Below are positions 16,250 to 59,837 of a DNA stretch of 64,000 nt, one piece after another. The stretch comes from Cinnamomum chago (lineage: Eukaryota; Streptophyta; Magnoliopsida; Laurales; Lauraceae): contig CP142454.1 in NCBI GenBank assembly GCA_038049695.1, positions 88,558,501-88,622,500 on the forward strand, read 5' to 3'. Both the position numbers and the translations under genes were made by a program. The first letter of the stretch is position 1, and each line of letters starts with the position of its first letter. The notes under the pieces were generated by a model. That model searched no databases. It worked only from the letters and a program-made list of their open reading frames with translations, and was not told the origin of the DNA.

Positions 16250-17613
16250 ATGCCCCAGTTTCATCCATCTAATTTTATTCTTCTTCTTCTCTTATTTCTG
16301 GTAGCAATGGAAGGATGGGCCTTTACACCACCACCAACTGCACAGACCCTGAAAATTGGTGTTCCTGGGGACTCTGTATGCCCCAAGTATGTAAGGATTA
16401 ACTGTAACCATTCCAACAAATGCTTCGACGGTTTCTCCATACAGCTCTTCGAACTAATTCTAGAACGTATCAACAATACGATGCCCTATCAATTCTTAAA
16501 ATATGAAGGCAGCAGTTACGACTCTTTGGTCGAGGAAGTCTCTTTAAAGGTACATATAATATATATTTGATGTGATCTTTACAATATGCATATCATTTTA
16601 GGATGCTTTCCAATAATTACATTCATAACAACTCTCAGTTGAGGCTGTATTTACCAAAGTATATGCCTGGGCGCTTTGATGATTCTGTGGCCATACATGA
16701 GGGCCCAGTGATAAACCAATATGCCAACATGTCTGTTGATCCATCATCATCTTCTTCTCCTTCCAATATAACAATATCTGATGCTGTTTTTTTCCCCTAC
16801 TTGGGAGAAGAGATTTGATGCGGTTGTAGGCGATGTATCAATCGTGGCGAATCGAACGCAATATGTAGACTTCTCTCGACACTACACGGTGATGGGAGTG
16901 AGGATGGTGGTGCTTGAAAAGCCGAAGGCTGGAAATGCTTGGATGTTTGTGAAGCCCTTCACAAAATCTATGTGGGCGCTGACAATAATCATATTTCTAT
17001 ACAATGGCCTCACCGTCTGGTTGATAGAGAAGGCAGGAGATGAAGAGTTAAAGAGCTCATCCTTTTCCAGCCAATTCGGCAGTTTGGTCTGGCTCTCCGT
17101 CACTGCCCTCTTCCCTATTCATGGTAAGAGACATTGATCATGCCCCTATCCTTGTTGAGCTATATTATAAGATTTAACCGCATCATTAATAAGGTCAAGA
17201 GATACAAAGTTAATTGTTAGCAACTGGGGCCACCTTTAAAAGATTTGAGTCGTTCAAATGATACAAATTATGGTAATTAATGTTGATTAGTTCCATATAG
17301 GTTAGTTAGTTGAGTCTTGAGTCTAGAATAGGTAGTTTGAAACCCATTCGACTCGGTTGGGTAGAGTCGATGACTTTTATGTAATTATTGGTTTTCTCAT
17401 TTTTACATCATATGCACGTTATTTTGGCATCATCGCGTGTATCTTGATGAGCACGTCGATTTTCATATTGAACTTGACTTCAATTGTTCAATGGTTGAAG
17501 AAGTGGACCATCATTTTACTCAAACAGGAAATACCACAAACTAGTGGACTTTTGTGCAAAATAGGCATTCTTATCCCTTTAAACCCAAATCAATTCATTA
17601 CATTCGTTTCCTG

Positions 17614-17651
<38 letters not shown>

Positions 17652-19614
17652 TTTGCTTCCTTTGTTTCCTTCTTTCCATTGCCCTTTCCTTCTTCTTCTC
17701 AATCATCAAAAGAGATTGTGTATGTGCATTTGGGGACTAAAAGTGAGATTATCTTCATCTTCATCTTCATCTTCATCTTCTCTATCTCTCTCTTAAGCTT
17801 TGTCATATTCCACAACTTTCATTTTTGGATTTCTTGTTCAGGTAAGAATCAAACCCATCTCTCTTTGTGTTTTTGAGTTGAAATAGAGTCAAGGGACTCT
17901 ATTGTAGTCATATTTGCATAATCATTAGCATTTTCATGTGTTTTCGGGGATTACCCTACTCCAGGGTGATTCGGGACCAAGATGTGACATGGCTTTTATT
18001 GGACTGGCAAATCCAGGCTTTCATGTGGGGCAGACCCAAGATTTCCATGTGGATATTGGAAGGAAACCAAAAATTCTAATATGGGTTTTGAAAGCGGACC
18101 CAAGCCCGATGCAGGCGACTGCCCCTAATAGGATATACTACGTCCACCCCTGATCAAAGGCCAACTTCATCTGACACAATAAACCCCTAGCCAATGCCCA
18201 CGTCTCTTAATTTTGTTGTTGTTGTTGATTGATTGTTGTTGGTGCAGGAGAGAAACTTCGGAACAATTTGTCTAGAGTGACCATGGTGGTATGGTTGTTC
18301 GTAGCATTGGTCTTGATCCAAAGCTATGCGGCTAACCTCACCACGATGCTCACAGTTACGCAACTGAGGCCCACTAGTCCTCTCTTGAGTAGCACAGACT
18401 ATGTTGGGTGCGACATAGGGTCCTTTGTCATAAGCTACCTAGAAAATGTCCTACACATCAACAAATCACACATCAAGACCTACTTGTCAGGAGAAGACTA
18501 CGCCAAAGCTCTCAGGAGTGGAGAGATTAAGGCCGCCTTCCTGGAACTTGCTTTCCTCAAGATATTCCTTTCAGAGCATAATAAAGGTTTTGCTGTTACT
18601 GGGCCCATCTATGAAATTGGAGGATACGGCTATGTAAGTATATATATAACAAATGAGTCCGACCATGTCATGATAATTAACCTTATGTGTTGCATCAGTC
18701 CATTTACCGTTTGGCAATTCACTTGTAGAGTGAAATCAAAGTAAATGGTCATTTTTAAGAGGAAAAAAAAAAAGAGGTGTCTAATTAAAAAGTATAAAAT
18801 TTCACAAACCGCCTTATTGACTTTTTTTCATCTTATGACATGTGAAGGAATTTTTCTGACTTTTGCATTAAGAATTTTTTTTGCGTTTTAGTAGAACGAG
18901 AGATTGACTTTTTGACCTATTTCTGTAAAAAAAATACGAGATAATTTTTGAAATTTTATTATCTTTTCTTATCTATAAAAAGGGACCCATACTTTGAAAT
19001 CACTCTACAAATGATCTTTGAAGCCGGCATTCTACTCAAAGAATAACAGGCTAAATTCCATTTTCTACAAGGTTAAGCTCCCCCTCAGGCATGAAAGAAA
19101 CTTCCCTTTTCTGTTATTGCATGATTATATCAGTTCAAACAATGACATATCTTTGTTTCTTCTTATGATATATATGGATGTCCTTCCTCAGGCTTTCTCA
19201 AAAGGTTCACCCCTTGTAGACAAAGTGTCTGATGAAATTCTGAGGTTAAGAGAAAGCGGGGAGCTCCATGATCTAGAGGACCTTTTATTGGTCCCTTCTT
19301 CGGAAAGTTCAAATTCGGATACCGGCGACCAGGAGAGTGCCAGGTTGAGCCCAGATAGCTTTTGGGGTCTCTTCCTTATCACGTTTGGAACATCGACGCT
19401 GGCGCTTTTACTGTTTCTGGTCAGTCGATTCTATGACAATTGGTGCCTCAAGAAGCAACATCAGGATGAACAGGTACCTGAGAAGGATGATGCAGCCAAT
19501 TTAACCCCATCAGAGAGAGCTCCTCACACAGTCACGGGAGTTGTGGTGCATGATCCTGACTGCTGGCACGTTGAAATTCAGCAGCCCATATCTGGAAGAA
19601 GCAATACCGGCTAG
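16250..19614 (+). CDS. GLR: GLR-A: glutamate receptor-like channel lacking the amino-terminal domain, 4 exons
   Basis: Proposed exons are 16250-16549, 16811-17123, 18248-18633 and 19192-19614, all with GT donors and AG acceptors and matching phases, giving about 473 aa. Residues 1-24 are a signal peptide (MPQFHPSNFILLLLLFLVAM), followed at once by ligand-binding lobe S1 (KIGVPGDS). The conserved ligand-pocket Arg is R115 in IVANR. M1 is about 154-172, the pore loop 188-203 (SQFGSLVWLS), M3 214-238, S2 about 240-383 and M4 about 389-411, with a cytosolic tail. The channel gate motif reads SYAANL (230-235) instead of the near-universal SYTANL. Usual plant GLRs are about 900 aa because an ANF/LIVBP-like domain precedes S1; none is found here. 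An earlier in-frame GTG at 16235 is not used as the start. Role: predicted plasma-membrane or endomembrane amino-acid-gated cation channel subunit. Confidence 0.88.
17614..17790 (+). repeat. Microsatellites in GLR-A intron 2: (GA)n then (TCTTCA)n
   Basis: There is a run of about 17 GA units at 17614-17648 and a pyrimidine-rich ttcatcttcatcttcatc repeat at about 17752-17786. Both lie in intron 2 (17124-18247). Overlapping open frames here are repeat artefacts. Confidence 0.85.
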
Positions 19615-20879
19615 AGTGCCCACAGTAAATCACCATTAATGCTCTTGGGCATAATCTGGTCAGAACCACAGATGATATCTTTCTTCACTTTTGGATCACT
19701 TGTAGAAAATCACCACCACCCTCACACCCGTACGTGTATAAAATCACCATCACTTGTATAAAATTACCATCCCTCTCTCAATACATAGCATTTCACAGAT
19801 AAAATATATCACCAATATATCTACATATTAGGCTTTCCTAATCTCTCCCTATTCATGAGGTCGAAGTATGAATGCTTTTGAAAGAATCGTGATAGATCTA
19901 ATCTAGTGAGCTGTTGGCACCGCCGGATGAATTGCGAGTTGATGGACCTATAGGACAGGCATGGTAAGTTTAAATTTGAATAAAATTGCTTACCTAGAAT
20001 CTCTAACTACTAGCCATTCTAATCGTATATCTATATAACACAATCACACAAATATATCTCCTGTTCATTAGCATGTGTCAATTCCTCTCCAATCTTCTAT
20101 TCCCATTATTAAATGTTTTTGGATGCGGAAAGCAATACAAGTTCATCATTTTTTATTAATTTTGGGGTAATTTAATAACTAGTTTATGATTTAAATTGGA
20201 TTAAATGCATGGTTTTAAATTTTTGATACTATGTTAATAAATTAATTTATATTACAGTCTTTGTATTAGTTTTTGCCAGCAAAAAGAATCAATTGTTTTA
20301 ATTATTTCTCAAAATCCACCCCTAGAGAAATTCCTTGGCCCCTCCCCACCAAAAACCCAAGAGAAAGGCCTGCCCAGCCACCACAAGGAAAAAAGGTTTT
20401 TATGAGTGGAAGTTAGTCCCAAAATATGTTGTAAATGTCACTGCAAGAAAACAACTTTAAGAGGAGGACTTTGCAGAAAAAAAAAACCCTTTCAGAGGAG
20501 GATAAAAACTGCTGCGAAAAACGAAAGCCATTTGGGACAGGAATTGGACCCCAGCCGACCGGAGCAGAACCGAAATTACAGCATCGAAAGTTACATATTG
20601 TTTCCACGAAATTACAACGATGTATCCCAAAAAAACAATCTTGTGGTGATCTAATATTTGCTATAATGAATAAATAAAAAAAGTTACGTGTAGATAGATT
20701 CACAGATTGAGAAGTGGCAGTCAAGCTAAGGGGCAAATGCTGTCATGCTAGTATTTGCTTCTTAGTATTGTCTAGAATTAACTGATATTCAAATACTGCT
20801 ATATTAGGATGCCCGAACGAAATTACAGTGAGAAAGGGATATGCTGGGAACGAAATGACATTCCCCTTGCACACTAAGT
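19615..20879. other. GLR-A 3' flank, duplicated unit
   Basis: It is collinear with 4977-5330, 5770-6360 and 9283-9366, and in its first part with the GLR-B 3' flank (59838-59900). It ends at the TSD of the large Copia element (TAAGT, 20875-20879). No gene was recognised in it; a polyadenylation signal was not singled out. Confidence 0.8.
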
Positions 20880-21336
20880 TGTTAGCTTAAGATCCCTCAA
20901 TCCACAGGAGGATCTCCTTGGGTTTAATCCAAATAACACGATGAAGTAAACATAAATAATCTGAGAATGAGAATGAGTTTACCTGACCCCATAGCTCTTT
21001 CTTGAAGGTAACAGAAGCTCCTTGAAATGACAAAGTCTTGAAACTCATGTGGGTTTACAACTCATTTGCCTTTGCTATTCTTTCTTGCTTAGTGATGGAG
21101 GCCAAGAAACTATTAACTAAAGGAATTATCCAAGGGTTCCTTTTATAGGAGATTCCTACCCATCAAGAAATTATTAACCCCCAACTATCACCTAACCCTT
21201 TAATTTCAGCCCATTATTAGTTTGTTGGCAAGTGAGCTCAAAATAACTGGATCTCTTAAATGTGCAGACAAGTGGGTATGATTAAAGATCCTTAATGGGC
21301 TTGTAGTCATGTGGGCCACACCCATTTAATCCAACA
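20880..21336 (-). repeat. 3' LTR of the 24.6-kb Copia element
   Basis: This is 457 bp, from TGTTAGCTTAAGATCCC to TTTAATCCAACA on +. It pairs with 44983-45448. The polypurine tract (minus AGTGGGAGAA) is immediately right, at 21337-21346. Confidence 0.95.
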
Positions 21337-21805
21337 TTCTCCCACTTGGCCCATATGACCATGAAAACAAAATCCAAGATTTTAATTTAAGGAAAATACA
21401 TTTTCAAATAGTACTTTGAAAAACGATAAAACGACCTTGACCGATGCGCATCAACTTTAAAATAATTGCCAACGTGTCTCTTATGCTAAGCCTTAATACT
21501 GTGTTTAAATTGGTTGACCAATGTAAATCATAGCGGTTACATGTCTTTAATGACATGCTCCCTTTCATAATTACTCTACTAGCACCCCAACCTAACCATG
21601 TCCTTGATAAGGGTAAAATACAACATTTTTCAATAGCCGTTCTATTTAATTGAGCCGTTACGATAATGTCATTCGCTTTAATATTCTTTTTTTATTCACC
21701 TTAATACATGTAAATATTTGACAAAATAAGCATTACGAAATCATTACTGTAATGATGTCCTCAGTAATAAGGCAAATCAATAAGGCCTATATTTCTGACA
21801 AGCTC

Positions 21806-22096
21806 TCAATAAGCGTTTGGTGCCAGTGCCTTTGTTAACGAATTTACTATCATTTGACTCGTTGGAGCCCCAACAATAGACACAAATCGATCTCGTACCT
21901 TTTCCTTTAATACAAAGAACTTAACTTCCAAAAACTTTGATTTACTGGAAACTTTGTCATTTTGAGCAAATCTTCTTGCTGTATCATTATCGCAAAAGAT
22001 TTTAAGAGGTTTAGAAATTGTATCTATAATTCGTAAACCTGTGATCAAAATCTCGCATCCATAACGCATGACCTGTTGCTTCAAAACATGCCACAT
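21806..22096 (-). pseudogene. Copia RNase H / polyprotein C-terminus fragment
   Basis: The 96-codon frame contains IFCDND and the FVLKEKVRDR... SLTKALAP block typical of Copia RNase H and C-terminus. It is the tail of the 24.6-kb element's polyprotein. About 100 residues expected between the RT end (28309) and this fragment are missing, so the intervening insertion was accompanied by a deletion. Confidence 0.85.
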
Positions 22097-22098
22097 AT

Positions 22099-23097
22099 AA
22101 CTACAAGAAATTTAGGCTGTTGCGACGAAATTTGATGACGAATTTTTTTTTTTTTTTTGTCTGAAAAGAACACCCAAAGGGGACGAAATATAAATTTTGT
22201 CGTCTGCTTTCAATTTTTTCAAAAGTATAGGAGACGAAAACAAAATTTCGTCTTCAAAAATATGGCGCTAACTTGTTTTGTGTTGGCGCCAATTATTTTA
22301 GCTCATTAGAGACGAAAATTGTTGTCACAAAATATAATTTTTTTTTCGACGAACGTAATTCGTCACCAATAAGAATAAGTTATGGAAGACGAACATATTT
22401 CGTCACCAAAATAAGACGCCAATTTCATTTGCTTTGACGCGGATTATTTTAGCTCATTGGAGACGAACATTTTTGTCACAAAATATAATTTATTTTTGTG
22501 ACAAACTTATTTCGTCACTAATAAGGATAAGTTTTGGAAGACGAAAATATTTCGTCACTAGAATAAGGTGCCAATTTCATTTGCGGGCTCCAATTATTTT
22601 AGCTTATTGGAGACGAAAAATTTTGTCACAAAATATAATTTGTTTTTGCGACGAACATAATTCGTCACCAATAAGGATAAGTTATAGACAACGAACATAT
22701 TTCGTCACCAAAATAAGACGCCAATTTCATTTGCTTTGGCGCGAATTATTTTAGCTCATTGGAGACGAAAATTTTTGTCACAAAATATAATTTTTTTTTA
22801 TGACGAACATAATTCGTCACTATTAAGGATAAGTTATGGAAGACGAAAATAATTGTTCACCAAAATAAGGCGCTAATTTCATTTGCGGTGACACCAATTT
22901 CATTCGTACTTGAGCCTATTCCCCTCTTACAAGTATTGCTTTGGAAAAACCTTTAAAATGACTAAAATGGGCCCCCCAAGGCCCTAACGTCCATCCCCCC
23001 CACCCCAATCCAACGCCCCTTTTTCCAAAATCCATTTCCCCCTTTGTCCCTCCATCTATCCCAATCTCTCTTTTCCAAAACCCTTTTTGTAACGCCC
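22099..23097. mobile_element. CACTA-family arm (TTCGTCAC subterminal repeats), other end lost
   Basis: It begins AACTACAAGAAATTTAGG (first C mutated to A) and continues with repeated units containing ATTCGTCACCAATAAGGATAAG. Its last 150 bp repeat 'ttttccaaaaccc' words. It is the inverted counterpart of the right arm of the CACTA at 28541-35680 (34510-35680). No partner terminus or 3-bp TSD is found next to it, so it looks like one end of a truncated element. Confidence 0.75.
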
Positions 23098-25077
23098 CAA
23101 TTCCGGATACCGATAAAATCGTTCGAATACCCGAAGTTGGCGCGCTACTTCCCGAAAAAACTGAGAACTTCCAAGATCGTAGGCCCGCAGTGAGGTCCAA
23201 TATAAAACTTTTTGAACCATATAGTAATCACAGTTAAATTGCGGAAGCATAAGAAATAAGCGGAAGCAATATGTATCGATATATAAGTAAAGTGTGAGCA
23301 GAACTACAGTCTAATTAAAAGGTTCAGTTATTAATCAAAAGTTAATACAACTTTGTTAGCTACCCAGCTCACTTACAAAATTTCTCTCAAACCCAAAATA
23401 AAGAGAACTCTCAAAACCCAGGTAACTCATCTCCGCCCTCCGGCTCGACATCCGTGTCGGCCAGGGCCCACGCGAACTCTCCAGCAATCGGTGCCTCTAC
23501 CAGCGCTAGTGCATCATCTGGGATCTCTGGGTCAAAGCCTAAGCACCAAAGAAGGGTCAGATCTAAAAGATCTGGCAAGTCACAACATACTACTAACATA
23601 AGACATATATATCAAATGAATAGAGACAGGTAAATAAATTAAAGAATAACAAGGTAATGAACTAGGCAGTTGAGCAGTATAATCATAAGGAATCGGGATA
23701 ATATAAAACAACATCTAATCTACTACAAGATGGCACATTCACACGAGCTGGAATACCGCGGGATATTATGCCTCGGCCCTCCCATACTGAACATAGTTGC
23801 GGCAGGGAAATCTCACCAGTGCTGGAAATTACTAATCCCGCAAATCACTTATCATCTCATCACACTCATCACTCGAAGACCAGACACGATATCACACCGT
23901 CCGTCTTAACCACACAGCTCATCATCATAGCTCCTCAACACTCAAATAGCTCCTACCGGGGATGATCAGTCCACAGGCTGAGCTTATATCAACCGAGTGA
24001 ATGTCTAATGCCGACTCGAGAATAACTCTAAGGGTCTGTGTCTGTCTAGGCTTTGCCTTGCATGAACAAGGTCCTATCCAAGTCTCTAAGAAGTCTGTAC
24101 ATCAATCAGTCTATGGATTATATTCTAAGTCCAAGCCCACTCGTTGGATCCATACCAAGGCCCATCAATCCGTGGCCTGGTCTAAAACCGTCCAAACGAG
24201 ACATCAAATCAATTTACTACTGATAAACAGTTCATTTTAATCCATTATGACTTAACAGCCCAATATAAACTACCTCTTCCGGCTAAAGGTACACATCCCA
24301 CACTTAGGCCCAATAAGGGCCCGCCTAGACACAGACGCGGGTCAATGTTCTCCCAAATCACACTATCGGGTCACCTCTAAGATATCGTAGGTTCAGGTCC
24401 TCCATTTTCCATTAATTGACAGTTAACAGCTACTCTAAAGATCTAAGAATGACAATATATAATAGAAGTGAAGTATGAACTTCAATGAGGGAATCAACAG
24501 GGAAAAGCAACGGTCCAATCCTAGGTAATGGGCCACGTTCAGGTTCAGGTCCATCTCCGGTAATTGGATCTCTAAACGAAGTTCATTGATGCCATATAAT
24601 ACTGTGTTTGGTGCTTAGGAAATTACGGGCATCATTGACAACTCTTAGAGGTCGAATCATCTTAGATTAGCAACCAAAACCCTAAACCGTGGTCCCCGCG
24701 AGTCAAGGTTGAGCCACACTGTTGACTCGGGCTCAAAACATCGATAAACGTTCATTTGGATGGTCAATGGGCCCCACAACTGATCACAAGTCCTAAATGT
24801 TGAAAATTGAAAAATCAGGGTTTCCCAGGTGGACCTGAGGTGTAGTGTGCTCGGTTGACCTCCTGGCCTGGTGGGTCAACCGAGTGCACTGGATAAACTG
24901 AATCAGGCCTCCTGGAAAGTTTGTTTCATTTCTAAAGGTTCCCAGCGTGTCCGGTCAACCTCTTGGCCTGGGTGATTGACCGCATACACCAAAAACCCTA
25001 GAAAGATAGATGTCCCAGCTTTAAACATTTTCTACTGTAAACCCTAAGTATCAGGTCATCTTTTTCCATGAAATTTC

Positions 25078-25505
25078 AGTCACTGAGCTCGGTCCTGTGC
25101 TGAGCTCGGTCCAGCACTGAGCTCGGCCAACACTGGTCTCGACCATGCACTGAGCTCGGTCCTGCACTGAGCTCGGCCATGCACTGAGCTCGGTCCACAC
25201 TGAGCTCGGTTTTGCACTGAGCTCGGTTTTGCACTGAGCTCTGTCCTGCACTGAGCTCGGTTTTGCACTGAGCTCAGTTTTGCACTGAGCTCAATTTTGC
25301 ACTGATCTCGGCCATACATTAAGCTCGGTTTTGCACTGAGCTCGGCCAACACTGAGCTCGGTTTGCACTGAGCTCGGCCATACACTGAGCTCGGTTTTGC
25401 ACTGAGCTCGGTCCTGCACTGAGCTCAGCCAACACTGAGCTCGGCCAACACTGAGCTCGGTTTTGCACTGATCTCGGCCATGCACTGATCTCGGTCATAC
25501 ACTGA
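25078..25505 (+). repeat. 17-bp minisatellite, CACTGAGCTCGGTTTTG-type units
   Basis: About 25 head-to-tail units of CACTGAGCTCGG followed by a variable spacer (ttttg, tcctg, ccaa, ccatg) run through this segment. Each unit centres on the palindrome GAGCTC. The variants are interleaved rather than blocked. Open frames reading AQCKTELS-type repeats on minus are artefacts of the array. Confidence 0.93.
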
Positions 25506-25884
25506 AAACCCAGTTTTGCAGGTCTCATCCTTTTAATCCGTTTTTCCTCCAAACTTCCTCCAATCATTCCCAAACTCCACCAAATCAACATAAAACAAAA
25601 ATATACTATAATGCACCATCATCCAACACAAAATAGGCCCATTGATCTTCCAAATGAGGGGTGAAACCCCCATCCATCAATGCCCAAATCCATCCAAACA
25701 AACAACAGAGGCTCCAGGTAATTTCTAAGACTCAATTAATTACAAACATGAAATGAAACACAGAAATCAAAGGAAAACACATACATTCTAAGTTAATAGT
25801 AGATGCACTTGCCTTTTAGTAAATGAGGGAAGGTTTGTAGAGGGAAAGAGAGCAATATAAGAGAGAAATCTCACTCAGCGGTGA

Positions 25885-26806
25885 AGAAGTAGAGATGTCA
25901 AATGGGCCGGGCCGGCCCGGTTCGGCCCGGCCCAGCACGCTAGTCAACGGGCCGTGGCACGGCACGGCCCGGCCCACAAGGCACGGCCCGAGACACGGGC
26001 CGTGCTGGGCCAAGGTCGCTGGGCCCGGGCCCGCCAGGCCCGCCAGCCCACTGGGCTGGGAGCTCCAGCCCGCTGGGCACGCTGGGATCAGCCCGCTGGG
26101 CACGCCAGGCCCGAAGCCCGCCAGCCCGCCAGCCAGCCCAACAGAAAAAATAAAAAAAAAAAGAAAGAAAGGAAGAAAGAAAGAAAAAAAATAAAGAAAG
26201 AAAGAAAGAAAAAAAAAACAAAGAATGAAAGAATGAAAGAAAAAAAACAAAGAAAGAATGAAAGAAAGAAAGAGAAAAAAACAAAGAAAGAAAGAAAGAA
26301 AAAAAAAAACAAAGAAAGAAAGAATGAAAGAAAGAAAGAAAAAAAGAATGAAAGAAAGAATGAAAGAAAGAAAAAAAAAAGAAAGAAAGAATGAAAGAAA
26401 GAAAAAAAAAAGAAAGAAAGAAAGAATGAAAGAAAAAAAGAAAAAAACAAAGAAAGAAAGAAAGAAAAAAAAAAGAAAGAATGAAAGAATGAAAGAAAGA
26501 AAAGAAAGAAAGAATGAATGAATGAATGAATGAATGAAAGAAAGAAAAAAAAGAAAGAAAAAAAAGAAAGAAAAAAAGAAAAAAACAGCCCAGCCCAGCA
26601 GGCCCGCCTGGCCCGCCAGCCCGCCTGGGCCGGCCCGCTCCAGCCCGCCCCATGGCGGGCCGTGCCAGTGGGCCGTGCCGTGCCAGGGGTTTTCCCTGGC
26701 GGGCCGTGCCGGCCCGGCCCGCTAGCTGGGGCGGGCCGTGCCAGCCCGGCCCGTGGCACGGGTGGGCCGGATCTGGGCCGGCACGGCCCGTTTGACATCT
26801 CGATGA
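25885..26806. mobile_element. GC-ended MITE with an internal GAAA-rich tract
   Basis: Inverted termini are GAGATGTCAAATGGGCCGGG at the left and the complement of GAGATGTCAAACGGGCCGTG at the right. Subterminal blocks (25900-26140 and 26590-26790) are almost pure GGGCC/GGCCC. The core (26145-26585) is an imperfect (GAAA)n/(GAAT)n purine tract. The flanks share gaagaa-type sequence, so the 8-bp duplication is not certain. The type resembles hAT MITEs. Large Phe/Ser and Lys/Arg frames here are spurious. Confidence 0.75.
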
Positions 26807-28306: not shown

Positions 28307-28308
28307 TA

Positions 28309-28540
28309 CGTTAGACTCCCTACTGCAGCAGCATAAGGACGTTGGTCCAGTTGACGTCTTTTGATTTCATTCCTTGGACTTTGCTCTTTACTAAATTTGT
28401 CACCCTTAATTATTGGTGAATCTTGAGGCCTACATCCTTCCATACAGAATCTTTTATGAATATTTTTTATATAGGATTCCTGTAATAACCTAAGTAATCC
28501 TCGAGATCCATCCCGATATATCACAATTCCTATTACAAAG
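28309..28540 (-). pseudogene. Copia RT fragment of the 24.6-kb element
   Basis: Minus translation gives IYRDGSRGLLRLLQESYIKN, then HKRFCMEGC, ending PYAAAVGSLTY, the usual segment after the YVDD region of Copia RT. It joins directly to 35681-35790 once the CACTA element at 28541-35680 is removed. Confidence 0.88.
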
Positions 28541-45448: not shown

Positions 45449-45453
45449 TAAGT

Positions 45454-47293: not shown

Positions 47294-49527
47294 TTATACA
47301 TCATAGCAATCCGATTCCAATCCAAGCCTAGGCAAATCTGATATATAAGAAAATATGTACAAGTAAGATTAAAATAATGCAAAAAACAATGTAAGGAAAA
47401 AAAAAAAAAAGGAAATGTTGCACATTACCATCATCCAACTTCTCAATTCCTTCTGAGTCCTCCTCAATGACATTGGAAATTGGTGAACCACAAAGCCAAT
47501 CTTTAGCACAGATTTGGGCTTGCACCATCCTTGGAGTCAAAGAAGTCCTATATGCATCAAGCACACGTCCACCAGCACTAAAGGCATTTTCCGAAGCAAC
47601 TGTAGATGCTAGAATGACTAGCACATTATGAGCCATTTGTGATAGAATAGGGTACCTTGAAGAGCTAAGCTTCCACCATCCCAATAAATCAAAACCCTCT
47701 TTATCTTCTTCAATTCCTTCAGAAAGATATTTGTCTAACTCAGTCTTAGCATTCTCATCTTGAACTATAGATTTAAACTTTTTGAAACCAGAAATATAGA
47801 CATCTGTGAAGCTTTCCCCTGTTTGTTCTACTTCTTCAGCTATCAATGATTGAGCTTTGTCACTTGCTTGTCCACTTAAGGATGACATCTTCCTTTTATA
47901 GTCATTGAACATGTCATAAGTAGCATTTCTCACTTCCAGTGCCATCTTCTCGCCTAATTTTCCTGGCTGCATTTTACCGATGACATAATCCACATACTCT
48001 AACTTATACCTAGGATCAAGTGCAACCGCAATGTATATTACCATATTCATCTTGCCAAATTCCCCATAATATTTATCAATTTTTTCTTTCATTGCACTCC
48101 CCATAATGCTTAATTCAAGGTCACTGCTTTTCTTCCATTGTTCTAAGAGACAATGCACAGCACTAATGTCATTAAACATATAGCTTGAGGTCACATATGA
48201 AGTTCCAGAAATTCGCAAAGTAAGATCATAAAAATGCTTCAAAAAAATGACAAGCTTCTTGACCTTTTCCCAATCACAACCATCTGGAATTCCTTTGCCT
48301 CCTCGTAAGTCAATTTTATACATGTGATCCAATTCCTCAAACCTCTCAAAAGCCGGTATAAATCTTTGAGCTGCATCCAACATCAAATATGTGGAATTCC
48401 ATCTAGTGCTTACATCAAGGCACAAAAATTTCTTGCTTTGTATCTTCTCCATTTGGATACACTCCTTAAATTTTGCAATCCTAGATGGTGATTGTCTCAC
48501 ATATTTAACAGCCCCTCGAACACGATCTACAGAGTTACCCATATCCTTTAACCCATCTTGCACAATCAAGTTCACAATATGTGTCATACACCTCATGTGA
48601 AGGTGTTTAGCTTTCAAGATACTTCCATCTTTACTTCCGAATCTCCTCTAAGATTTTCATTGCTTGATCATTAGAAGTTGCATTATCCACCGTAATGGTG
48701 AACACATTAGATATCCCCCACTCCACCAAGCACTTTTCAATTGCCCTAGATATGGAATCACCTTTATGACTATCGATTGGACGAAAATTTAATATTTTCT
48801 TATGCAATCTCCAATCAATGTCGATAAAATGCGCCGTGAGACACATGTAGTTTATCCTTTGCAATGATGTCCAAGTATCGGTAGTCAACAAAATCCTCCC
48901 ACATGAATCTTTCAAAAACGTCTTCAACTTAGTCTTCTCTTCCATGTAAAGATTGTAACAATCTTTAGCTATGGTCCACCGGGAAATCATTCGAAACTTA
49001 GGTTGCAAGGTAACAACAAATTCCCTAAACCCTTCATTTTCAACATATTTAAAAGGCAACTCATCAATGATGATCAATTTTGCCAACATTTTCCTGCTAA
49101 ACTCATTGTCAAACTTCCAGTTAGCTAAAGTACCCATCTTCTCACTTTCTCCTTCTTGACTACTTGCTACTTGAAATGACAATAGTGATTGTTGTTTCTT
49201 AGCAATTCCCAAGTACTTCTTACACTTAGTCAAGTGATAATTTAAAGAACTAGTACCATTTGACTTACTATTGCAATGAAATAGCCTCCCACAGTAATTA
49301 CAATTAGCCCTCAAGTTACCATTATCATCTTTTATTCTTTTGAAGTGTTTCCATGCTTCTGCACGTAGTTCCATTGCCTTCCTTTTCCCTTTGCCATCTC
49401 CAGTTGCTGGATTTTCAGTTGGTGGATCTTTCGTTTGGGCACCAATTGGTGGATTTTCTGTTCGAGCATGTACAATTGAAGCTGATGGCTCTTTAGTTGT
49501 ATTGAGATTATTCCCTTCTTGTGCCAT
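47294..49527 (-). pseudogene. hAT transposase (BED finger, RNase H-like core, dimerisation domain), frameshifted
   Basis: It starts at MAQEGNN (ATG 49527). A BED zinc finger is at C76, C79, H98, C102. The core includes LLTTDTWTS. Around 48635 two bases are missing relative to the duplicate (gaatctcctctaag versus gaatctcttctctaag), giving a frameshift after ILEEIRK. The second frame (48617 to 47429) carries CLDVSTRWNSTYLML, the hAT C-terminal dimerisation region SSRYPILSQMA and ASTVASENAFSAGGRVLD. A small intron (47428-47338) and last exon (47337-47294) are inferred. RICESLEEPER-like family; otherwise nearly intact. Confidence 0.9.
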
Positions 49528-50495
49528 CTGTTCAAGACTCAAACACAGTACAAAATGAGCATTAGTATAAAGAAAATATGTCCAAAATTCTTGTAGCATC
49601 CATACACAGAGAATAAGTTCAATTGAACACGCATCCAAAATCCAAAAGGCATACCATAAAATCTGTCCAAGACCCACATGGTCCCCTGCTATAAATCTTT
49701 AACATGGGTACTCATTTTTAGGTTTGTAAAAGTCAAAGCAAAATTACATCTCCACAAAAGAACAAGAATAGTATAGTCTGTCTGGGACCACATCCAACTA
49801 AATAACAAAAGCACACAATACACTAGTAGTTTGTAACATTAAACAAGTAAAAACTTTTTGAGAAGCGTCAACCAAATGTCCACCGTTGGTAAAGATTTGT
49901 TGGTTGTCAATGAAGATCTGAGAGAAAGGGCTAATTACTTGAGCTGCTTCAGCCTCCAAGTTGACTCTTGGGTCTTGGCTTGGTTAGTGCTAGGTGTCGC
50001 CGCCCGCTGTCCAAGAGAGGAAAAGAAGAGAGAAGATGGAAAGTTAGTTTACCTTTTTAGGGTTTTTACTTTTTAGTGTTGTGTGGAGGAAAAGAAGAGT
50101 CAAGAGAAGATGAAACGTTAGTTTACCCTTTTAGGGTTTTTTACTTTTTAGGGTTGTGTGACTTGTGTCTTCACTATTTTGTTTCAATTTTAAATTTCTA
50201 ATTTTCATAAAATGAAATTATAATTACAACAAATGATGTCATGTACTCATTTTATTTATATATACAATATATTTGATATATCTAAAATACAAACTTTTAT
50301 ATATATATATTAATAAATCCGGTTAATTCGGTTAATTTGGTGAAAAAAATCCAAAACCGAACCGAACTATATTATCCAAATTTGCTGTAAATCTTAACCG
50401 AACCTAACCAATTTAACTGTTTCACCGAACCAAATAAAAAATTTCGGTTCGGTTCGGTTCGAAACTTCGGTTCGTTAGACAGACGCTCACTCCTA
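48596..50495. repeat. 1900-bp direct repeat, left copy
   Basis: It aligns with 50496-52395 at a constant offset of 1900 bp at both ends, with small compensating indels inside. It covers the transposase 5' half, upstream region and right terminus of the hAT element. Confidence 0.93.
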
Positions 50496-51429
50496 TGTGA
50501 AGGTGCTTAGCTTTCAAGATACTTCCATCTTTACTTCCGAATCTCTTCTCTAAGATTTTCATTGCTTGATCATTAGAAGTTGCATTATCCAACGTAATGG
50601 TGAACACATTAGCTATCCCCCACTCCACCAAGCACTTTTCAATTGCCCTAGATATGGAATCACCTTTATGACTATCGAGTGGACGAAAATTTAATATTTT
50701 CTTATGCAATCTCCAATCATTGTCGATAAAATGCGCCGTGAGACACATGTAGTTTATCCTTTGCAATGATGTCCAAGTATTGGTAGTCAACGAAATCCTC
50801 CCACATGAATCTTTCAAAAACGTCTTCAACTTAGTCTTCTCTTCCATGTAAAGATTGTAACAATCTTTAGCTATGGTCCACCGGGAAATCATTCGAAACT
50901 TAGGTTGCAAGCTAACAACAAATTCCCTAAACCCTTCATTTTCAACATAATTAAAAGGCAACTCATCAATGATGATCAATTTTGCCAACATTTTCCTGCT
51001 AAACTCATTGTCAAACTTCCAGTTAGCTAAAGTACCCATCTTCTCACTTTCTCCTTCTTGACTACTTGCTACTTGAAATGACAATAGTGATTGTTGTTTC
51101 TTAGCAATTCCCAAGTACTTCTTACACTTAGTCAAGTGATAATTTAAAGAACTAGTACCATTTGACTTACTATTGCAATGAAATAGCCTCCCACAGTAAT
51201 TACAATTAGCCCTCAAGTTACCATTATCATCTTTTATTCTTTTGAAGTGTTTCCATGCTTCTGCACGTAGTTCCATTTCCTTCCTTTTCCCTTTGCCATC
51301 GCCAGTTGCTGGATTTTCAGTTGGTGGATCTTTCGTTTGGGCACCAATTGGTGGATTTTCTGTTCGGGCATGTACAATTGAAGCTGATGGCTCTTTAGTT
51401 GTATTGAGATTATTTCCTTCTTGTGCCAT
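50496..51429 (-). pseudogene. Second copy of the hAT transposase N-terminal half
   Basis: Starting at ATG 51429, it has the same BED finger and core start as 49527, without the frameshift (LEKRFGSKDGS continues in frame). The coding sequence stops matching at 50496, where it abuts the terminal repeat of the first copy, so the C-terminal half is absent. Confidence 0.9.
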
Positions 51430-52395
51430 CTGTTCAAGACTCAAACACTATACAAAATGAGCATTAGTATAAAGAAAATATGTCCAAAATTCTTGTAGCA
51501 TCCATACACAGAGAATAAGTTCAATTGAACACGCATCCAAAATCGGCCAAAAGGCATACCATAAAATCTGTCCAAGACCCACATGGTCCCCTGCTATAAA
51601 TCTTTAACATGGTTGACTTTTTAGGTTTGTAAAAGTCAAAGCAAAATTACATCTCCACAAAAGAACAAGAATAGTATAGTCTGTCTGGGACCACATCCAA
51701 CTAAACAACAAAAGCACACAATACACTAGTAGTTTGTCAACATTAAACAAGTAAAAACTTTTTGAGAAGCGTCAACCAAATGTCCACCGTTGGTAAAGAT
51801 TTGTTGGTTGTCAATGAAGATCTGAGAGAAAGGGCTAATTACTTGAGCTGCTTCAGCCTCCAAGTTGACTCTTGGGTCTTGGCTTGGTTAGTGCTAGGTG
51901 TCGCCGCCCGCTATCCAGGAGAGGAAAAGAAGAGAGAAGATGGAAAGTTAGTTTACCTTTTTAGGGTTTTTACTTTTTAGTGTTGTGGAGAGGAAAAGAA
52001 GAGTCAAGAGAAGATGAAACGTTAGTTTACCCTTTTAGGGTTTTTACTTTTTAGGGTTGTGTGACTTTTGTCTTCACTATTTTGTTTCAATTTTAAATTT
52101 CTAATTTTCATAAAATGAAATTATAATTACAACAAATGATGTCATGTACTCATTTTATTTATATATACAATATATTTGATATATCTAAAATACAAACTTT
52201 TATATATATATATATTAATAAATCCTGTTAATTCGGTTAATTTGGTGAAAAAAATCCAAAACCGAACCGAACTATATTATCCAAATTTGCTGTAAATCTT
52301 AACCGAACCTAACCAATTTAACCGTTTAACTGAACCAAATAAAAAATTTCGGTTCGGTTCGAAACTTCGGTTCGTTAGACAGACGCTCACCCCTA
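50496..52395. repeat. 1900-bp direct repeat, right copy
   Basis: This is the second copy of 48596-50495. Its left boundary is exactly the last base of the first copy's terminal repeat (ACTCCTA at 50489-50495). Its right end is the true element end next to the TSD. Confidence 0.93.
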
Positions 52396-53521
52396 GCCAA
52401 GGATGTTAAGCTACTCTTGACTTTGACTTGTGGATTGAATTCATGAATTTCAGACATCCAAAATCTCAGGGACAGCTATCACATTAGCATGTTTGAATTT
52501 AAGACCATCAGTAATTTAGTAAGAGATTCTGGTAGAGAAACAACTAACAAGCCTATGCAGTTGAATGAAGTCGCAGTTAAGATTCGCAATTTGCTCAAGT
52601 CAAGTCAGATGTATTTGGTAACACAATGTTTGACTGAATTTTTATAAGATGACATGTTTTACGGGTAATTTTCTTCTAGAATATTACCCAATGAGAGGAA
52701 GGCATCCAAGTAGTTTCCAAGTGGGCTTGACCACAAGGGCCAGTATGCGGTCTGGTAGTAGGTAAGTGTACGTACATCAGATGGTGTTGACCTCTCATCA
52801 GATGATAGCATAGAATTGAAATATTGGTAACCTTTGTTACAAAAAACTTAAACAATTAAAATAAATAAGTAAAAGTGTTATTATTAAGTTTCTTTAGGTA
52901 ATCATTTACTCCTCAACACTCCCCTCAAAGTGGAATCGGGGCACACTTTTGAAAACATGCATATTTTTTTTTCGTCGTTTCTTTAATTTGGGATCCGAAC
53001 TAGTGATTAGTTGACTCTAATACTATATTAAGCAATCTTAAACAACCATGTCTACCAAAACCTTGAGGCGTATTTGATTATCTCTACAAAAATAAAATAA
53101 TAAAAAACAAGTCCCATGAGAAGATCCCTATTGTATGATCAAAGATTGTTGATAAACACCCTGCTATGAAATAAGTGCTTTTTTCAAGAACTAAAACTAG
53201 AACCTGAAATTTAGAGGTATTTGTTCTAGGAAGAGTCTCATTAGTCTGTATGGCTATTGGACTCTTATAGCAAACGTACTAAACAAAACAACATTAACAA
53301 ATTGCTTGAATGCAACATATAAAGAGAGCTTTTTAATGGTTTTCTGATTTAGAGACGTACCTAAAGATTAAATCCAAATTAATTGTAGCTTACATCCAGG
53401 TTGTTGGGCCGGTATTGGTTTCAAATCCAATGTCTTATTGGGTCTAAACTCAGGTTCACACGCATAGGAAGCTATTAGTAATATGACAAATTTAAAATGA
53501 TATATATTTATTATTTTATTT

Positions 53522-53629
53522 TTTACATTAAGTCGCAATTATATTAATAGTGGAAACAAGGTCCACAAAAGGATCTTTACATTAAGTCGCAATTATATTA
53601 ATAGTGGAAACAAGGTCCACAAAAGGATC
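53522..53629 (+). repeat. 54-bp tandem duplication
   Basis: Two perfect copies of a unit beginning 'tttacattaagtcgcaatta' lie at 53522-53575 and 53576-53629. This is a simple recent duplication in intergenic DNA. Confidence 0.92.
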
Positions 53630-53649
53630 GAAAGAACCAAGAACAAGAA

Positions 53650-53665
53650 ATAAATAAATAAATAA

Positions 53666-53722
<57 letters not shown>
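53650..53722 (+). repeat. (AAAT)n and (TA)n microsatellite
   Basis: Six aaat units are followed by about 25 TA units. Tyr/Ile-repeat frames crossing it are artefacts. Confidence 0.93.
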
Positions 53723-53725
<3 letters not shown>

Positions 53726-55587
53726 GTCCACGAAAGAACCGGTTGTGTAGGGGTTCGGTGGTATGAAATGACGCTGACCTTAAATACGTGTTTTCCGCTG
53801 CTTAATTTGAGTGGAAGGCCTGCATATTCAGGATTTTTAAAGAGTGGAAAACTTGTAAACTTCCTCAACAACCCTTCACTCAATTTTTTTCATTTCTTTC
53901 CACTTCAGGCTCAGTCAGCCCAGCTTCTACACAATAGCCCGACACGACACAAATGTCGGCATTCTCTATTCTCTCAATCTCTTTTTTCTTTTATGATTCT
54001 CTCTTCTCTTTCTTCCTCTTTGCCTAGATTCACCAAGAACGTCACTCTCTATATATATATACAAATTAGGGATAGTGATGAGTACCTTTGAATCAAATAA
54101 ATATGGACATAAAATGCCTTCTTCCAAATGGATTCAATGAATTGCGCCTTGGATTTATGTTTTCCTTTTTGAAAATGTAGGCCACTATTTTTACACACAA
54201 TCAGAGCTGCTGTCTCTAACAAACGCACACCACATATATTGAAACCATTCATATGTAAAGTCGTTTGGGTGCTTTGGTTGCATTTTGGTCTTATAGCTCA
54301 TTCTTTCTTTTGGGATATTCAGCTTGCATAATGTTATTGCACTTTTTCTACTTTATCATATCACTAAATGATTAAAAAAAAAAACCTTATCTTTTTAAAA
54401 ATAAAGTCAAAAAACTATTTTCTCAGAATATTGGTATCTCATAAATATTGGGGGAAATGGAAGAAGCAACATTCTACTAGGGCTACCGATTCGGCCCATT
54501 GATGAGGGGACCTGGCCCATCCCACGAAGTGTGCGCTGTTATTCTTGTCCTAAACCCCAACTGTACGGTAGGACCCAACTTGGCCTCGCCAGCCCAAGAT
54601 GATAGGGTTCAGTGTTGCGGTTGGCTTTTACAGAGAGGAGGAGCCTAGGGAGATCTTTCCAACCCCCCCAAGTCCCAGTGGAGCCCCATCTGGTCCCCAC
54701 ATCATGGTACGCACGGTCATCCAGTGCACGAGGTGCTACAAAGGACCGTGTAAGAGCTTGTTGATTGATGGGGTCCACCTTACAAATATTCTTTCAACCA
54801 GCCCAGCCTGGCTCAATCCACTGTTTCTCTTTTTCCCTTCTTTTCTTTTCTTTTTTGCCTTTTTCGAATATTTATGTTAGGGTTATGATAAAGCAAAGTA
54901 ACAAAAACATCACAAGGTATATGACAAAGTAGCACACCTTGGACCACCATATTGCCTGGTAATTCCTTTTTTTATTATAAAGTACAGACTCTTGAGATTT
55001 TTTAGTGAAAAGACTGAGACTATTTCTAATGGAAAAGGACCCCATCTTTGGTCCAAACTGGGAGAGCATGTTTGAACCAATCAGAGGGTGCCACATGGGA
55101 GAAAAAAAAATTAGGAGATGAGATGGAATTGGGTTGACATCTCTCTCCCATGTGGCACCCCAAGTGGTCCAAACAGAGATCCGTTTCCACAAATATGACA
55201 GTGAAGTCAGACAAAATTACAGCTTTGAAATTCCCTTAATGCTGACTTTGGATTTGAATACTATCTAATTAGTTATTACTCCTCTCTCATGACAAGTAGG
55301 AGAAGACGAAGATGAGGGACTACTAAGAAAGAAGGTTTAAGAAAAAAAAAACATTAATTTTAATCCAACGGTCCAATTCATTTGGATCAGTGTCGAATCC
55401 TCAAGATCCATGACATATGGGGAGTGGGGCTGAAATTGATTATGTGCAAGACAGCGGAACAGGAACATTTGCCTTATTTATTACTCCTCATGACAGGGAG
55501 GAGAAGATGAAGAATGAGAGAGTATCTAAAACAAAACAGTGCAAAAGAAGAAGAAAGTCTCATCTCCAACAGGGAAAAGAGAAGAAG

Positions 55588-58500
55588 ATGTCCCACTTCC
55601 AATCTTTTCTTCATCTCCTCTTATTGCTCATAGCAATGGAAGGATGGGTCTTTACGCCAGCAACTGCTGGACAGCCCATGAGAATTGGGGTTCCTGTGAA
55701 CTCTCCATCCCACAAGTATGTGAGGGTGAAATGCAACCAAACTTCCAACAAATGCTTCGATGGTTTCACCATACGACTCTTCAAACTGATTCTAAAACGT
55801 CTGCGTTACAACAAGCCCTATCAATTCATTCCATACAACGGCAGTTATGACTCTTTGGTTCAGCAAGTGTTTTTGAAGGTAAATATGTTGTCCTGTTAAT
55901 CTACATAATGCATGCATGTCATGTCGGAGGGAAATGATATGTCCAGATCATTTTAGGATGTTTTCACATTCACATCAGTTGTTGGTGGGGATACGCATTT
56001 ATCTAGTATAGATAGAGTTCTGAATCAGGGACATTTGAGGCTTTGATTTGGAAAACACGAGTGAACCGCCTGTCTATTGAAAATCTGATTTGCTCAAAGT
56101 TTCTCCAAGTTTTACCCTAGTAAGAGTTAGTTGCACTATAATATTTATCTTTGATAGCAAATGTGATTCATTCAATCTTTTTTCTCTTTTTTTTTTTGTT
56201 TTTGCTAGGTGGCCCAATGGCCACGAGAGGTGGAATAAACATGCCCACCCATGAATCGATCCCTGCTTCGAACTATGGGAGCGAGTGTGCTTAACCACAG
56301 CGACACTCTATGATTCCCGATTAACACAATATTATCCATATTCATTTCACTTTTTTCTTCAAATGTGTAGTGGGACCATCTCTTCTTGAGGAAAGATTTG
56401 TGGGATATGGCATACACTAGGAGGGCATTTACTTGAGCGGCTCAGGGTTTTCAATAAGTAGTACCCACTGTAAAAATCTACTAAGGTCTAAGAGGATCTA
56501 GATTCATAGTATTATATATACTTTATTAGTTACCTGGGAAAGCATAGAAAGAGGAGAGATTATAGGGAAGTAAGAACTATTTAACATCTAAGCCTATTTC
56601 ACAACACATGTGGCCCAGCGATGTCCAGCACAAGTGTTTGGTTAGAGGAATTCCGAGAATTCTTGACTAGGGGAAGAACCACAATGGTTTCACAATGTTC
56701 AAATACAATCTATCATTTAGGAAGCTGGATTGTGAAAATTCCAAAGATCAAAAGTGACTTTCATAAGATTGGTTTATAGAATTTCAATGCTCCAAATACA
56801 TTATTTGAAACTGCTGTGAGAAATTTATCACTTGCAATTCTCACTAGAATTCCCAGATCTAACTTTTGCACAAATTGTCATCTTCTTATTCTTCTCTCTC
56901 TCTCTAATTTGAGGAGAAAGAAATTTGATGCAGCAGTAGGCGATATATCAATCGTGGCGAATCGAACACAATATGTAGACTTCGCTCAGCCCTACACACC
57001 GAGGGGAGTGAGGATGGTTGTGCGTGAAGAGGCAGAGGCTGGAAAGGCTTGGATGTTCGTGAAGCCCTTCACAAAGATGATGTGGGCACTGACAGGAGCC
57101 ATATTTCTGTACAATGGCCTCATCGTCTGGTTGATGGAGAAGTCAGGCAATGAAGAGTTACAGGGCTTATCATTTTGGAGCCAATTCGGCAGCTTGGTCT
57201 GGCTCTCCTTCACCACCCTCTTCCCCATTAATGGTAACAGGAACTGCCATATCCCCCATGTTGTTGAGTAATTATAAGACTTTACCTCATTAATAATCAG
57301 GTCAAGCGAACCAAAGTTAATTCCGGGTCACCTTTCAAAGATCTGAACTGTTTAAAAAAATAAAACTCGATTATACCTCAGTGGAGCTAATCCGTTTTCT
57401 TTGGTGGAATTAACCATCAGATTGAAATAAACTCGATTAAACTAATAACAAAATAATCATTATTAACAAATCACAATATTTTTATCGGTTCCCTTTTTAC
57501 TGGTTTCAACGTTGGTGTATAGACCCCTGTGAGGCCCATGACGATGACCATGCCTAGGATGGAAACAGTGCTCTAGGCGTCGTGTTGCTGAATCATAAAT
57601 ATTTTCTCACATCTACTATAAAAGGGTGTGATTGTGCAGTGCTGCCGTGTTTTTCTCTTTCACGGCACTCGTTTTCCCACCGGATGCACGGTGGAGAGGA
57701 AAATATTGGCAAAACAAAGCACCGGAAATCATAGAAGGCCCGAATCCTCGCTGCACCAAATAGGTACAGGATAGCGCGGCAGTGAAAGAGAAAGACATTC
57801 GCAGTGGGCCCTAGCCCCAATTCTACGTTGGGGATGGGTGATAACTCTCTTTCCCTAATGAGATTTAAACCAGGATATTAATGAGTAGGTTTGGATTGGG
57901 CGGTGTGCCGTACATGGACCTAGAGCCTGATTTCTGCATAGAAGACCCACCCCCACTAGGGTAACAATTCCTAACCCAATGAGCCTAACCTGGATGAACC
58001 CAATCGACAGCTCATACTGATATGTCCGACCCAATTAATAACTAGTTGGTGGTCCCACTTAACCATGAACCAACCTAAATTAACCTAGCCTAACCTTCTT
58101 AACCATGAACCAACCTAAATTAACCCGGCCCAACCCTCAACGCTGTAAACCGAACCCAACTCGAGAAGTAATCTTCTGGATTGATATTTCTAACCCGATT
58201 ACTAAATGGATTGGTTTGTTCATATCCATTGGCATTGAACGCTAACCTGACCTGACTCAATAAAAACCCTCGACCAATACCCCACGTCTGTAACTATTAT
58301 TGTTGTTTTTGTTGTTGGAGCAGGAGAGAAACTCCGGAGTAATTTGTCTAGAGTGACCATGGTGGTCTGGTTGTTTGTGGCATTGGTCTTGACTCAGAGC
58401 TACACTGCTAACCTCACCTCAATGCTCACAGTTCAGCAACTGAGGCCGAGTGGTGTTGATGTGGAGACACTCCAAAGGAGCACATATAAGGTGGGGTGTA

Positions 58501-59837
58501 CCCATGGGTCCTATCTCATAGGCTACTTAGAAAATGTCTTGCATTTCAACAAATCATGCATCAAGACATACTTGTCAGGGAAAGAGTACGCCCAAGATCT
58601 CAGGAGTGGAGAGATCAAGGCCGCCTTCCTAGAGCTTGCTTTCATCAAGATATTCCTTGATGAGAATAAGAAGGGCTTTGTGGCTACAGGACCTATATAC
58701 GAAATCGGTGGATATGGCTTTGTAAGTATGTTCATTCTGAGTCGGCTCGACCGAGTCAAGTTGCCTAATTAAGCTAAGCCATCAAGTTGAAGTTGCCTTA
58801 ATTAGCCATCAAGTTGAATGAGCCTAACCGAGTAATTGGCAGGGCTGGACTGAACTACTAGGGTTGGCGACCTTCTACGTCGGGCCGAGTTTTTTAGCTT
58901 TTAAGCTAAGAGCCATGCATTTAGACATGACTCAGTGACCTCCTTTAGTAGTGTCAGTCCATTTGGGGCCTATTTGTTTACATGATATTTGAGAATTCTT
59001 TGTCAAGAAATACTTGAAATCACCAAATGCTTCCCCCCAGCCAAACTCACAAATGCTCAAGGCCCGGTAACAATTTTGAAAGCTAAAATTTGGAAATTCT
59101 TGAGAATTCTGTAAAAGCCGAAAGTATTAATTCTCAAAGATACATTTTTAGAAACTCAAAAATCAAGCAGGCAAAAGTGCTGGGGGATAGCCACTGGCAT
59201 CCTGTAAAAAGTTCCGGACAGCTTGAATTCTCATCACTAATTCTTGCAATACAAACGGCCCCTACAGGTGAGGGTCAGAAGTTTCATTTGCTTGTGGCTA
59301 AGCTCAGTCCTCAAGCATAAAAGGATTCCTTCCTTTCTGTTTTATGATTATATCAGTTCAAATAATGACGTACCTTTTGCTTCTTCATATTATATGGATG
59401 TTCTTCCTCAGGCGTTCTCAAAAGGTTCCGCCCTCGTGGGAAATGTAACCGATGAAATTCTAAGGTTAAGAGAAAGCGGGGAGCTCCGTAAACTAGAGGA
59501 GCATCTGTTGGTTTCTTCTCCTTCCAATAGTTCAGGTTCTGATACAGACGCCCAGGAGAGTAGCAGGTTGAGCCCAGACAGCTTTTGGGGTCTCTTCCTT
59601 ATCACTGGAGGAACATCGACACTCGTGTTTTTGCTATTTCTGATCAGTCAATTCCATAATAATCAGCGCAGGAAGAAGCCACACCAGAATCAACAGGTAC
59701 CTGAGAGGGATCATGCAATCAATTTAGCCTTGCCAAAGAGAGCTCCTCACATGGTTAAGGCCAGTGCGGTGCATGATCCTTACTGGTGGCACAATAAAAT
59801 TCAGCTGCGCAAGTTTGGAAGAAGCAACACCCTCTAG
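55588..59837 (+). CDS. GLR: GLR-B: glutamate receptor-like channel lacking the amino-terminal domain, 4 exons
   Basis: Exons are 55588-55878, 56921-57233, 58324-58721 and 59412-59837, with GT/AG sites and the same phases as GLR-A, giving about 475 aa. The signal peptide MSHFQSFLHLLLLLIAMEGW precedes S1 (MRIGVPVNS). The ligand-pocket Arg is R112 in IVANR. M1 is about 151-169, the pore loop 185-200, M3 211-235 with the canonical gate SYTANL (227-232), and M4 follows in exon 4. An in-frame ATG at 55417 would add 57 charged residues before the signal peptide; 55588 is preferred because it places the signal peptide at the start and matches GLR-A. No ANF/LIVBP domain is found upstream. Introns are 1042, 1090 and 690 bp; exon 2 is the same length (313 bp) in both paralogues. 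Predicted ligand-gated cation channel subunit. Confidence 0.9.
56170..56310 (-). mobile_element. SINE in GLR-B intron 1
   Basis: The minus strand carries an A-box-like TGTGGTTAAGCAC (near 56297) and a B box AGTTCGAAGC (56274-56265), and ends in an A tail (T-rich 56177-56203 on +). TGATTC at 56164-56169 and 56311-56316 may be the target duplication. Intron 1 of GLR-A (261 bp) lacks it. Confidence 0.7.

Follow-up and report, generated by a model that had tools for sequence, protein, structure and literature searches.

A tandem array of glutamate receptor-like channel genes without an amino-terminal domain in Cinnamomum chago

The window analyzed here is a 64-kb stretch of the Cinnamomum chago genome (1.06 Gb in 14 contigs), at positions 88558501-88622500 of contig C4, and it carries two genes of the plant glutamate receptor-like (GLR) family, named A and B, which lack the amino-terminal domain (ATD) and belong to a tandem array of at least nine such copies. 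The ATG of gene A lies at position 16250 of the window and the final base of the gene B stop codon at 59837, exactly the limits within which a preliminary description, made from the letters alone, had placed two GLR genes. In splice-consistent models both genes have four exons, A at 16250-19614 (473 aa) and B at 55588-59837 (475 aa), and a common layout consisting of a signal peptide (by hydropathy), about 13 linker residues, S1, M1-M3, S2, M4 and a tail; a signal-peptide-like core at the N terminus, as well as M1, M3 and M4, appears in the hydropathy profile of both. The two proteins match Lig_chan and SBP_bac_3 in Pfam, with Lig_chan (PF00060) scoring 93.5 bits for B and 84.7 bits for A (cut-off 30.8), and Lig_chan-Glu_bd scoring 34.2 bits for B, above the cut-off of 30, and 27.2 for A, below it. 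A PDB search with B returned AtGLR3.4 (7LZH) as the best match (phmmer E 2.4e-70, residues 18-422), and the four best matches are all plant GLRs. By their ligand-binding and channel core, as read from sequence, A and B thus belong to the plant GLR family.

In gene A, on the forward strand like gene B, exon 1 (16250..16549, GT donor at 16550, phase 0) encodes a putative signal peptide, a short linker (EGWAFTPPPTAQT) and the first part of S1; exon 2 (16811..17123, with AG acceptor and GT donor, phase 1) encodes the remainder of S1, M1 and the start of the pore region; exon 3 (18248..18633), where the PF00060 match falls, encodes the pore end, M3 with an SYAANL gate and most of S2; and exon 4 (19192..19614), assigned from the splice model and hydropathy, encodes the S2 end, M4, the C-terminal tail and the stop. 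Gene B is built likewise, from the same kinds of evidence. Its exon 1 (55588..55878) holds the putative signal peptide, the linker (EGWVFTPATAGQP) and the first part of S1, with EGWVF..RIGVP aligned to the AtGLR3.4 stretch before S1, and is followed by exon 2 (56921..57233; remainder of S1, M1, pore region start), exon 3 (58324..58721; pore end, M3 with an SYTANL gate, most of S2, PF00060 match) and exon 4 (59412..59837; S2 end, M4, C-terminal tail, stop). The three introns of each gene are all GT-AG, with phases 0/1/0 in both, in agreement with the shared architecture and exon phases described earlier. The hydrophobic run ends near Met20 in A and near Met17 in B, and S1 begins with LKIGVP from residue 34 (IGVP at 36) in A and with MRIGVP from residue 31 (IGVP at 33) in B, giving [LM][KR]IGVP as the S1 start motif in exon 1; the earlier figure of about 12 residues between signal peptide and S1 was a fair one.

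Neither PF01094 nor PF13458 matches the A and B proteins at E values up to 0.1 (Pfam), so that both genes are without the domain that precedes S1 in a canonical full-length GLR. The profile search proposed in the preliminary description, which we ran genome-wide, placed none of the 41 PF01094 matches (56 of 56 candidates scored) and none of the 29 PF13458 matches (29 of 29 scored) on the 98.6-Mb contig C4. As tblastn queries we took the ATD (358-389 residues) from each of six loci that have one (L038, L039 and L041-L044); these queries reached a best E of only 0.34 against the 64-kb window and 0.33 against the seven other C4 loci, with no remnant in the window or in any of the seven; for the six of these loci that have an ATG, the search covered 4.9-6.4 kb upstream of exon 1. 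In the window, the two profiles and tblastn revealed no ATD exon or remnant upstream of gene A (1..16249) and no ATD remnant between A and B (19615..55587), where transposable elements lie. As controls, the queries detected eight ATD-bearing loci (L038-L044 and L046), the four best listed matches of each having E 9e-41 or better, although these include the query's own source locus where that locus is one of the six sources. Against L045 and the C8 loci L047-L050 they gave nothing better than E 2.1; L045 is the channel part of a gene whose ATD sits in L046, a locus without a channel module. A missed ATD exon near the genes is thus rejected on two profile families and tblastn. The absence of the ATD is borne out by Pfam, the genome profile search and tblastn, and the upstream ANF-encoding exon that the preliminary description had named as counter-evidence does not appear in the same locus of this assembly.

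A search with protein B gave exon-by-exon matches at nine or more places on C4, between 88.13 and 88.68 Mb (about 0.54 Mb), a count that is a lower bound, with the best 90 of 218 candidates scored. The two paralogues of the preliminary description are both real, but their number is larger, nine copies including A and B, and for each of the seven further copies a ten-kilobase stretch was examined. Eight of the nine have an exon 1 in which an ATG, a putative signal peptide and S1 share a single open frame, and the splice sites and phases are likewise the same in eight. Since this exon 1 make-up is so widely held, a fresh deletion or a single misassembly in A or B can be discarded. Seven copies have open frames, of 471-479 aa. 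In L032 a stop codon interrupts the M3 exon, and L035 lacks an exon 1 start of the usual kind and has an exon 2 that carries two extra bases and lies out of frame; in L035 a copia-type element (GAG-pre-integrase and RVT_2, at 2280-5800 of its stretch) lies directly upstream of the S1 exon, where the other copies start exon 1. The copies fall into three subgroups, I including A, L033 and L036, and III including L031, L034 and L032. M1, M3 and M4 are recognized by hydropathy in six of the seven intact copies, M1 of L031 being under the threshold used, and the gate motif is SYTANL in subgroups II and III and SYAANL, with Ala in place of Thr, in subgroup I. From about -259, the upstream DNA of L036 (subgroup I) matches that of subgroup III copies (91-97% for L031 and L034, 81-83% for L032), the genes themselves being far more diverged than this shared upstream DNA, and a block akin to it lies 3-4 kb upstream of A (69-82% matches, window 12064-13164). 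Such a pattern suggests that upstream regions may have been exchanged within the C4 array.

To count channel modules genome-wide, PF00060 matches on the same strand and within 3 kb were clustered, and an ATD was scored present if PF01094 lay no more than 30 kb upstream on that strand, rules under which a gene with long introns may count twice. The 79 PF00060 matches form 60 channel-module loci, 37 with an upstream PF01094 match and 23 without; the latter comprise the nine of the C4 array, nine at C8:66.17-66.40 Mb and five scattered ones. The C8 group (C8:66174653-66397852, loci L047-L050) has no ATD profile match among its nine modules, and in the five of these that we examined S1 is preceded by no ATD within the upstream stretch covered (about 1.9-6 kb). 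Unusual gate motifs occur in all four for which M3 was covered (SYAAEL, SYGANL twice and TYVGIL), and in L047 the frame before S1 contains an M3-like SYTRSLNSML stretch.

In a tree of 22 channel modules (319 columns; the partial L048b left out), run with full-length GLRs as the preliminary description had proposed, the nine C4 rows form one clade (support 100/100) among ATD-bearing rows. Its neighbors are the ATD-bearing rows of C12, C9 and C7, C12 being the nearest with modest support (79/87.5), and the C4 rows stand apart from AtGLR3.4 and from the C5, C2 and C8 rows. Because the nine copies form one clade, a single ATD loss preceded the C4 duplications, in line with the earlier claim that the loss is older than the duplication. 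The four ATD-less rows from C8 (89/81) fall together with an ATD-bearing gene of the same contig, and forcing these ATD-less rows and the C4 rows together (13 rows) as a single origin is rejected by the approximately unbiased (AU) test (p-AU 2.3e-5), which is less strict here, the grouping having been picked after the loci were seen. Should the C8 modules truly have no ATD, this genome would have seen at least two losses.

As for the route of the C4 loss, the ATD and the start of S1 lie in one open frame in six of the seven ATD-bearing relatives examined (L038, L039 and L041-L044), the seventh, L040 (C9:70243797-70244610), being broken, with its ATD in pieces and a stop. A separate upstream signal-peptide-like frame is present in the four relatives where the screen found one (L038, L039, L042 and L043); the same screen returned nothing for L041, L044 and L046, and the L040 frame was not accepted as a signal peptide. 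Unlike these relatives, the C4 genes have signal peptide and S1 in one exon. Directly before S1, EGWVFTPATAGQPMRIGVP of B aligns with RGWVFPNNGKPLRIGVP of AtGLR3.4, and the linker motif is GW-x-x-P in L041-L044 and GW-x-x-T-P in C4 subgroups I and II, most of the linker being gone in subgroup III. The retained motif is likely the junction scar of the ATD deletion, and a single in-frame deletion would be the simplest account of the loss. The N termini read MPQAFSILLLLLLGAISSQ in L038 and MPQALS.. in L039, both on C12, and MPQFHPS or MSQFQS/MSHFQS plus a leucine run in C4; the signal peptide may perhaps have been inherited from an ATD-bearing ancestor, but the stretch compared is of low complexity.

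The ratio of nonsynonymous to synonymous substitution (dN/dS) was estimated by the Nei-Gojobori method with bootstrap, excluding the broken L032 and L035. For the 16 pairs that intact copies form across the three subgroups, dN/dS is 0.26-0.42, its bootstrap upper bounds reaching at most 0.57, and dS is 0.38-0.68. By region, M1-M3 gives 0.20-0.27 in five of eight pairs where computable (A/B, A/L033, A/L036, A/L031 and B/L031); for the same five pairs, S1 ranges from 0.18 (B/L031) to 1.32 (A/L036) and the tail from 0.49 to 0.75. We also simulated neutral evolution of the B frame, with uniform substitutions, no indels and 500 runs per level: at 0.10 changes per site one of 500 frames was stop-free, and at 0.22 and at 0.30 none was. 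The low between-subgroup ratios and this simulation together show that, for much of the time since the ATD was lost, the shortened proteins evolved under constraint, with purifying selection acting between subgroups.

Ligand and pore columns were set by alignment to AtGLR3.4, from which, rather than from a structure paper, the residue numbers are taken. The six-position ligand-coordinating consensus, given in PMC11479355 as Asp, Arg, Ala/Thr, Phe/Tyr, Glu and Tyr, is matched at four positions, Asp, Arg, Phe/Tyr and Glu being kept in all eight C4 copies readable at all six, and the Ala/Thr position is Ser in those eight. The plant-specific arginine is replaced by Asn or Asp in C4 and is absent too from the ATD-bearing C12, C9 and C7 relatives. 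With four ligand positions kept and purifying selection between subgroups, nothing in particular favors the earlier proposal that these could be "constitutive" or "decoy" subunits.

The reading that we favor, and hold to be rather probable, is that the array consists of nine tandem ATD-less GLR channel subunits that would have arisen by one deletion followed by duplication and divergence, and that are functional. An in-frame deletion in an ancestral gene would have begun inside the signal-peptide exon, spanned the intron and stopped immediately ahead of the linker. It would have joined signal-peptide coding sequence to the pre-S1 linker, with loss of the ATD and of its internal intron, and duplication and divergence of the shortened gene would later have given rise to the three subgroups. 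Carried into the secretory pathway by the secretion signal, the proteins, which keep a two-lobed ligand-binding domain, would form tetramers held together solely by contacts of the ligand-binding and transmembrane parts, among themselves or jointly with ATD-bearing GLRs, and amino-acid-like ligands would act on them free of the allosteric control that an ATD exerts. With seven of the nine copies intact, the sequences suggest stripped-down but useful channels rather than wreckage. Several observations weigh against this reading. The C12 genes, although the nearest ATD-bearing relatives, have REW and not GW in the linker, and therefore the junction scar rests on other relatives. Two of the nine copies (L032 and L035) carry lesions, and within subgroups dN/dS is 1.08 [0.48-3.80] for B/L037, with amino-acid changes seemingly in excess in S1 (11 to 0), 0.48 [0.15-2.56] for L031/L034, and 0.52-0.59 for three subgroup I pairs (L033/L036 0.52 [0.27-1.16], A/L033 0.58 [0.39-0.90], A/L036 0.59 [0.40-0.90]); S1 alone reaches 0.75 in A/L033 and the 1.32 mentioned above in A/L036. 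The most recent copies, within subgroups, thus seem to be without clear constraint. The lesions and most of these ratios would also be expected if the array were a graveyard, in which ATD loss made the genes useless and left them drifting, as a 45-species survey (PMC4995503) proposes generally, reading ATD loss as gene elimination or removal of redundancy. In that survey 11.03% of the plant GLRs were ATD-lacking; GLR1&2 accounted for 74% of these and tandem duplications for 80.22%, and PbrGLR2.11, the ATD-lacking pear gene that it names, was unexpressed in all samples. Seven frames nevertheless remain open despite the dS between subgroups, dN/dS between subgroups is low even at its upper bounds, and neutral drift in the simulation leaves hardly any frame stop-free, all of which make a graveyard unlikely.

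Somewhat less likely still, the C4 proteins could act as dominant-negative subunits or, as the preliminary description had also suggested, as modifiers, entering complexes with ATD-bearing GLRs and changing or silencing these. The consensus Tyr, the sixth ligand position, is Phe in all nine C4 copies, which also counts against the reading favored here, and Tyr in all nine ATD-bearing rows, as well as in those four ATD-less C8 rows that cover this region; subgroup I has SYAANL for SYTANL; and the AtGLR3.4 pore Phe663 position is Pro in all nine, unlike the ATD-bearing C12, C9 and C7 relatives (Ser or Ile). The Gly found in C4 at the pore Arg666 position speaks the other way, since the ATD-bearing C12 and C9 genes share it and it is therefore not tied to ATD loss. 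An ATD exon might also exist and have been missed, being unassembled, too divergent or far upstream across a long intron, given that some ATD-bearing loci have a gap of about 10-26 kb between the ATD and the first channel match (for example at C5:6679950, C8:66153742 and C10:40522958). With an own ATG, a hydrophobic signal peptide and S1 in exon 1 of eight of the nine copies, two profile families without a match on a 98.6-Mb contig and no tblastn remnant, we consider this highly improbable, and retain functional ATD-less subunits as the better account.

The remaining features of the window are mobile elements and repeats. Two hAT-type transposase copies, both with a BED zinc finger, lie between A and B (47328-51447, reverse strand), and the frame adjoining one of them has RNase-H-like and dimerisation domains. 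Domain search also identified two copia-type pieces on the reverse strand, at 6726-8222 (RVT_2 in 7041-8222) and at 38326-38787 (GAG-pre-integrase in 38329-38787). Repeats around ttcgtcac in A+T-rich DNA were seen by eye at 22130-22870.

Compared with known systems, the C4 genes share S1, M1-M3, S2 and M4 with full-length plant GLRs (AtGLR3.4, 7LZH, and the C12, C9 and C7 relatives), and in tblastn these relatives fall into pieces whose breaks lie close to the same three intron positions. Full-length GLRs have, however, an ATD of 358-389 residues (six queries) before S1, where the C4 proteins have about 13 linker residues, and fewer in subgroup III. A natural ATD-free clade, seemingly long maintained by selection, that sits beside ATD-bearing relatives in one genome lends itself to comparative work on assembly, trafficking and gating. 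Plant GLRs lacking the ATD have been published before, and the constrained, expanded clade is the new part; among the titles and abstract openings searched, which cover few subscription journals, none reported an ATD-less GLR clade kept under selection. The ATD-lacking genes of PMC4995503 resemble those of C4 in having a channel module without an ATD, mostly in tandem duplications; they are counted there per gene and read as elimination, whereas C4 is one clade of nine with purifying selection between subgroups, which argues against treating every ATD-lacking GLR as an outgoing gene, as that survey did. Bacterial GluR0 likewise combines a ligand-binding domain and a pore without an ATD, so that the likeness to GluR0 drawn in the preliminary description holds to this extent; GluR0 is, however, without M4 according to PMC11479355, and the C4 proteins, with an M4-like helix in exon 4, are not of GluR0 type. 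The nearest parallel, by analogy and with no kinship claimed, is with the tuning Ionotropic Receptors (IRs) of insects, which PMC7882480 and PMC2924276 describe as relatives of ionotropic glutamate receptors without a typical ATD, with lineage-specific expansion and altered ligand-contact residues. Tuning IRs differ from the C4 proteins in keeping about 200 divergent residues before S1, and they have co-receptors, IR8a and IR25a, that keep the ATD. By this analogy the C4 array could, though we think it doubtful, be a flowering-plant counterpart of tuning IRs that evolved through ATD loss and later expansion and diversification of the ligand-binding domain, with minimal subunits for varied ligands and ATD-bearing GLRs as co-receptors, a route that the C8 cluster would repeat.

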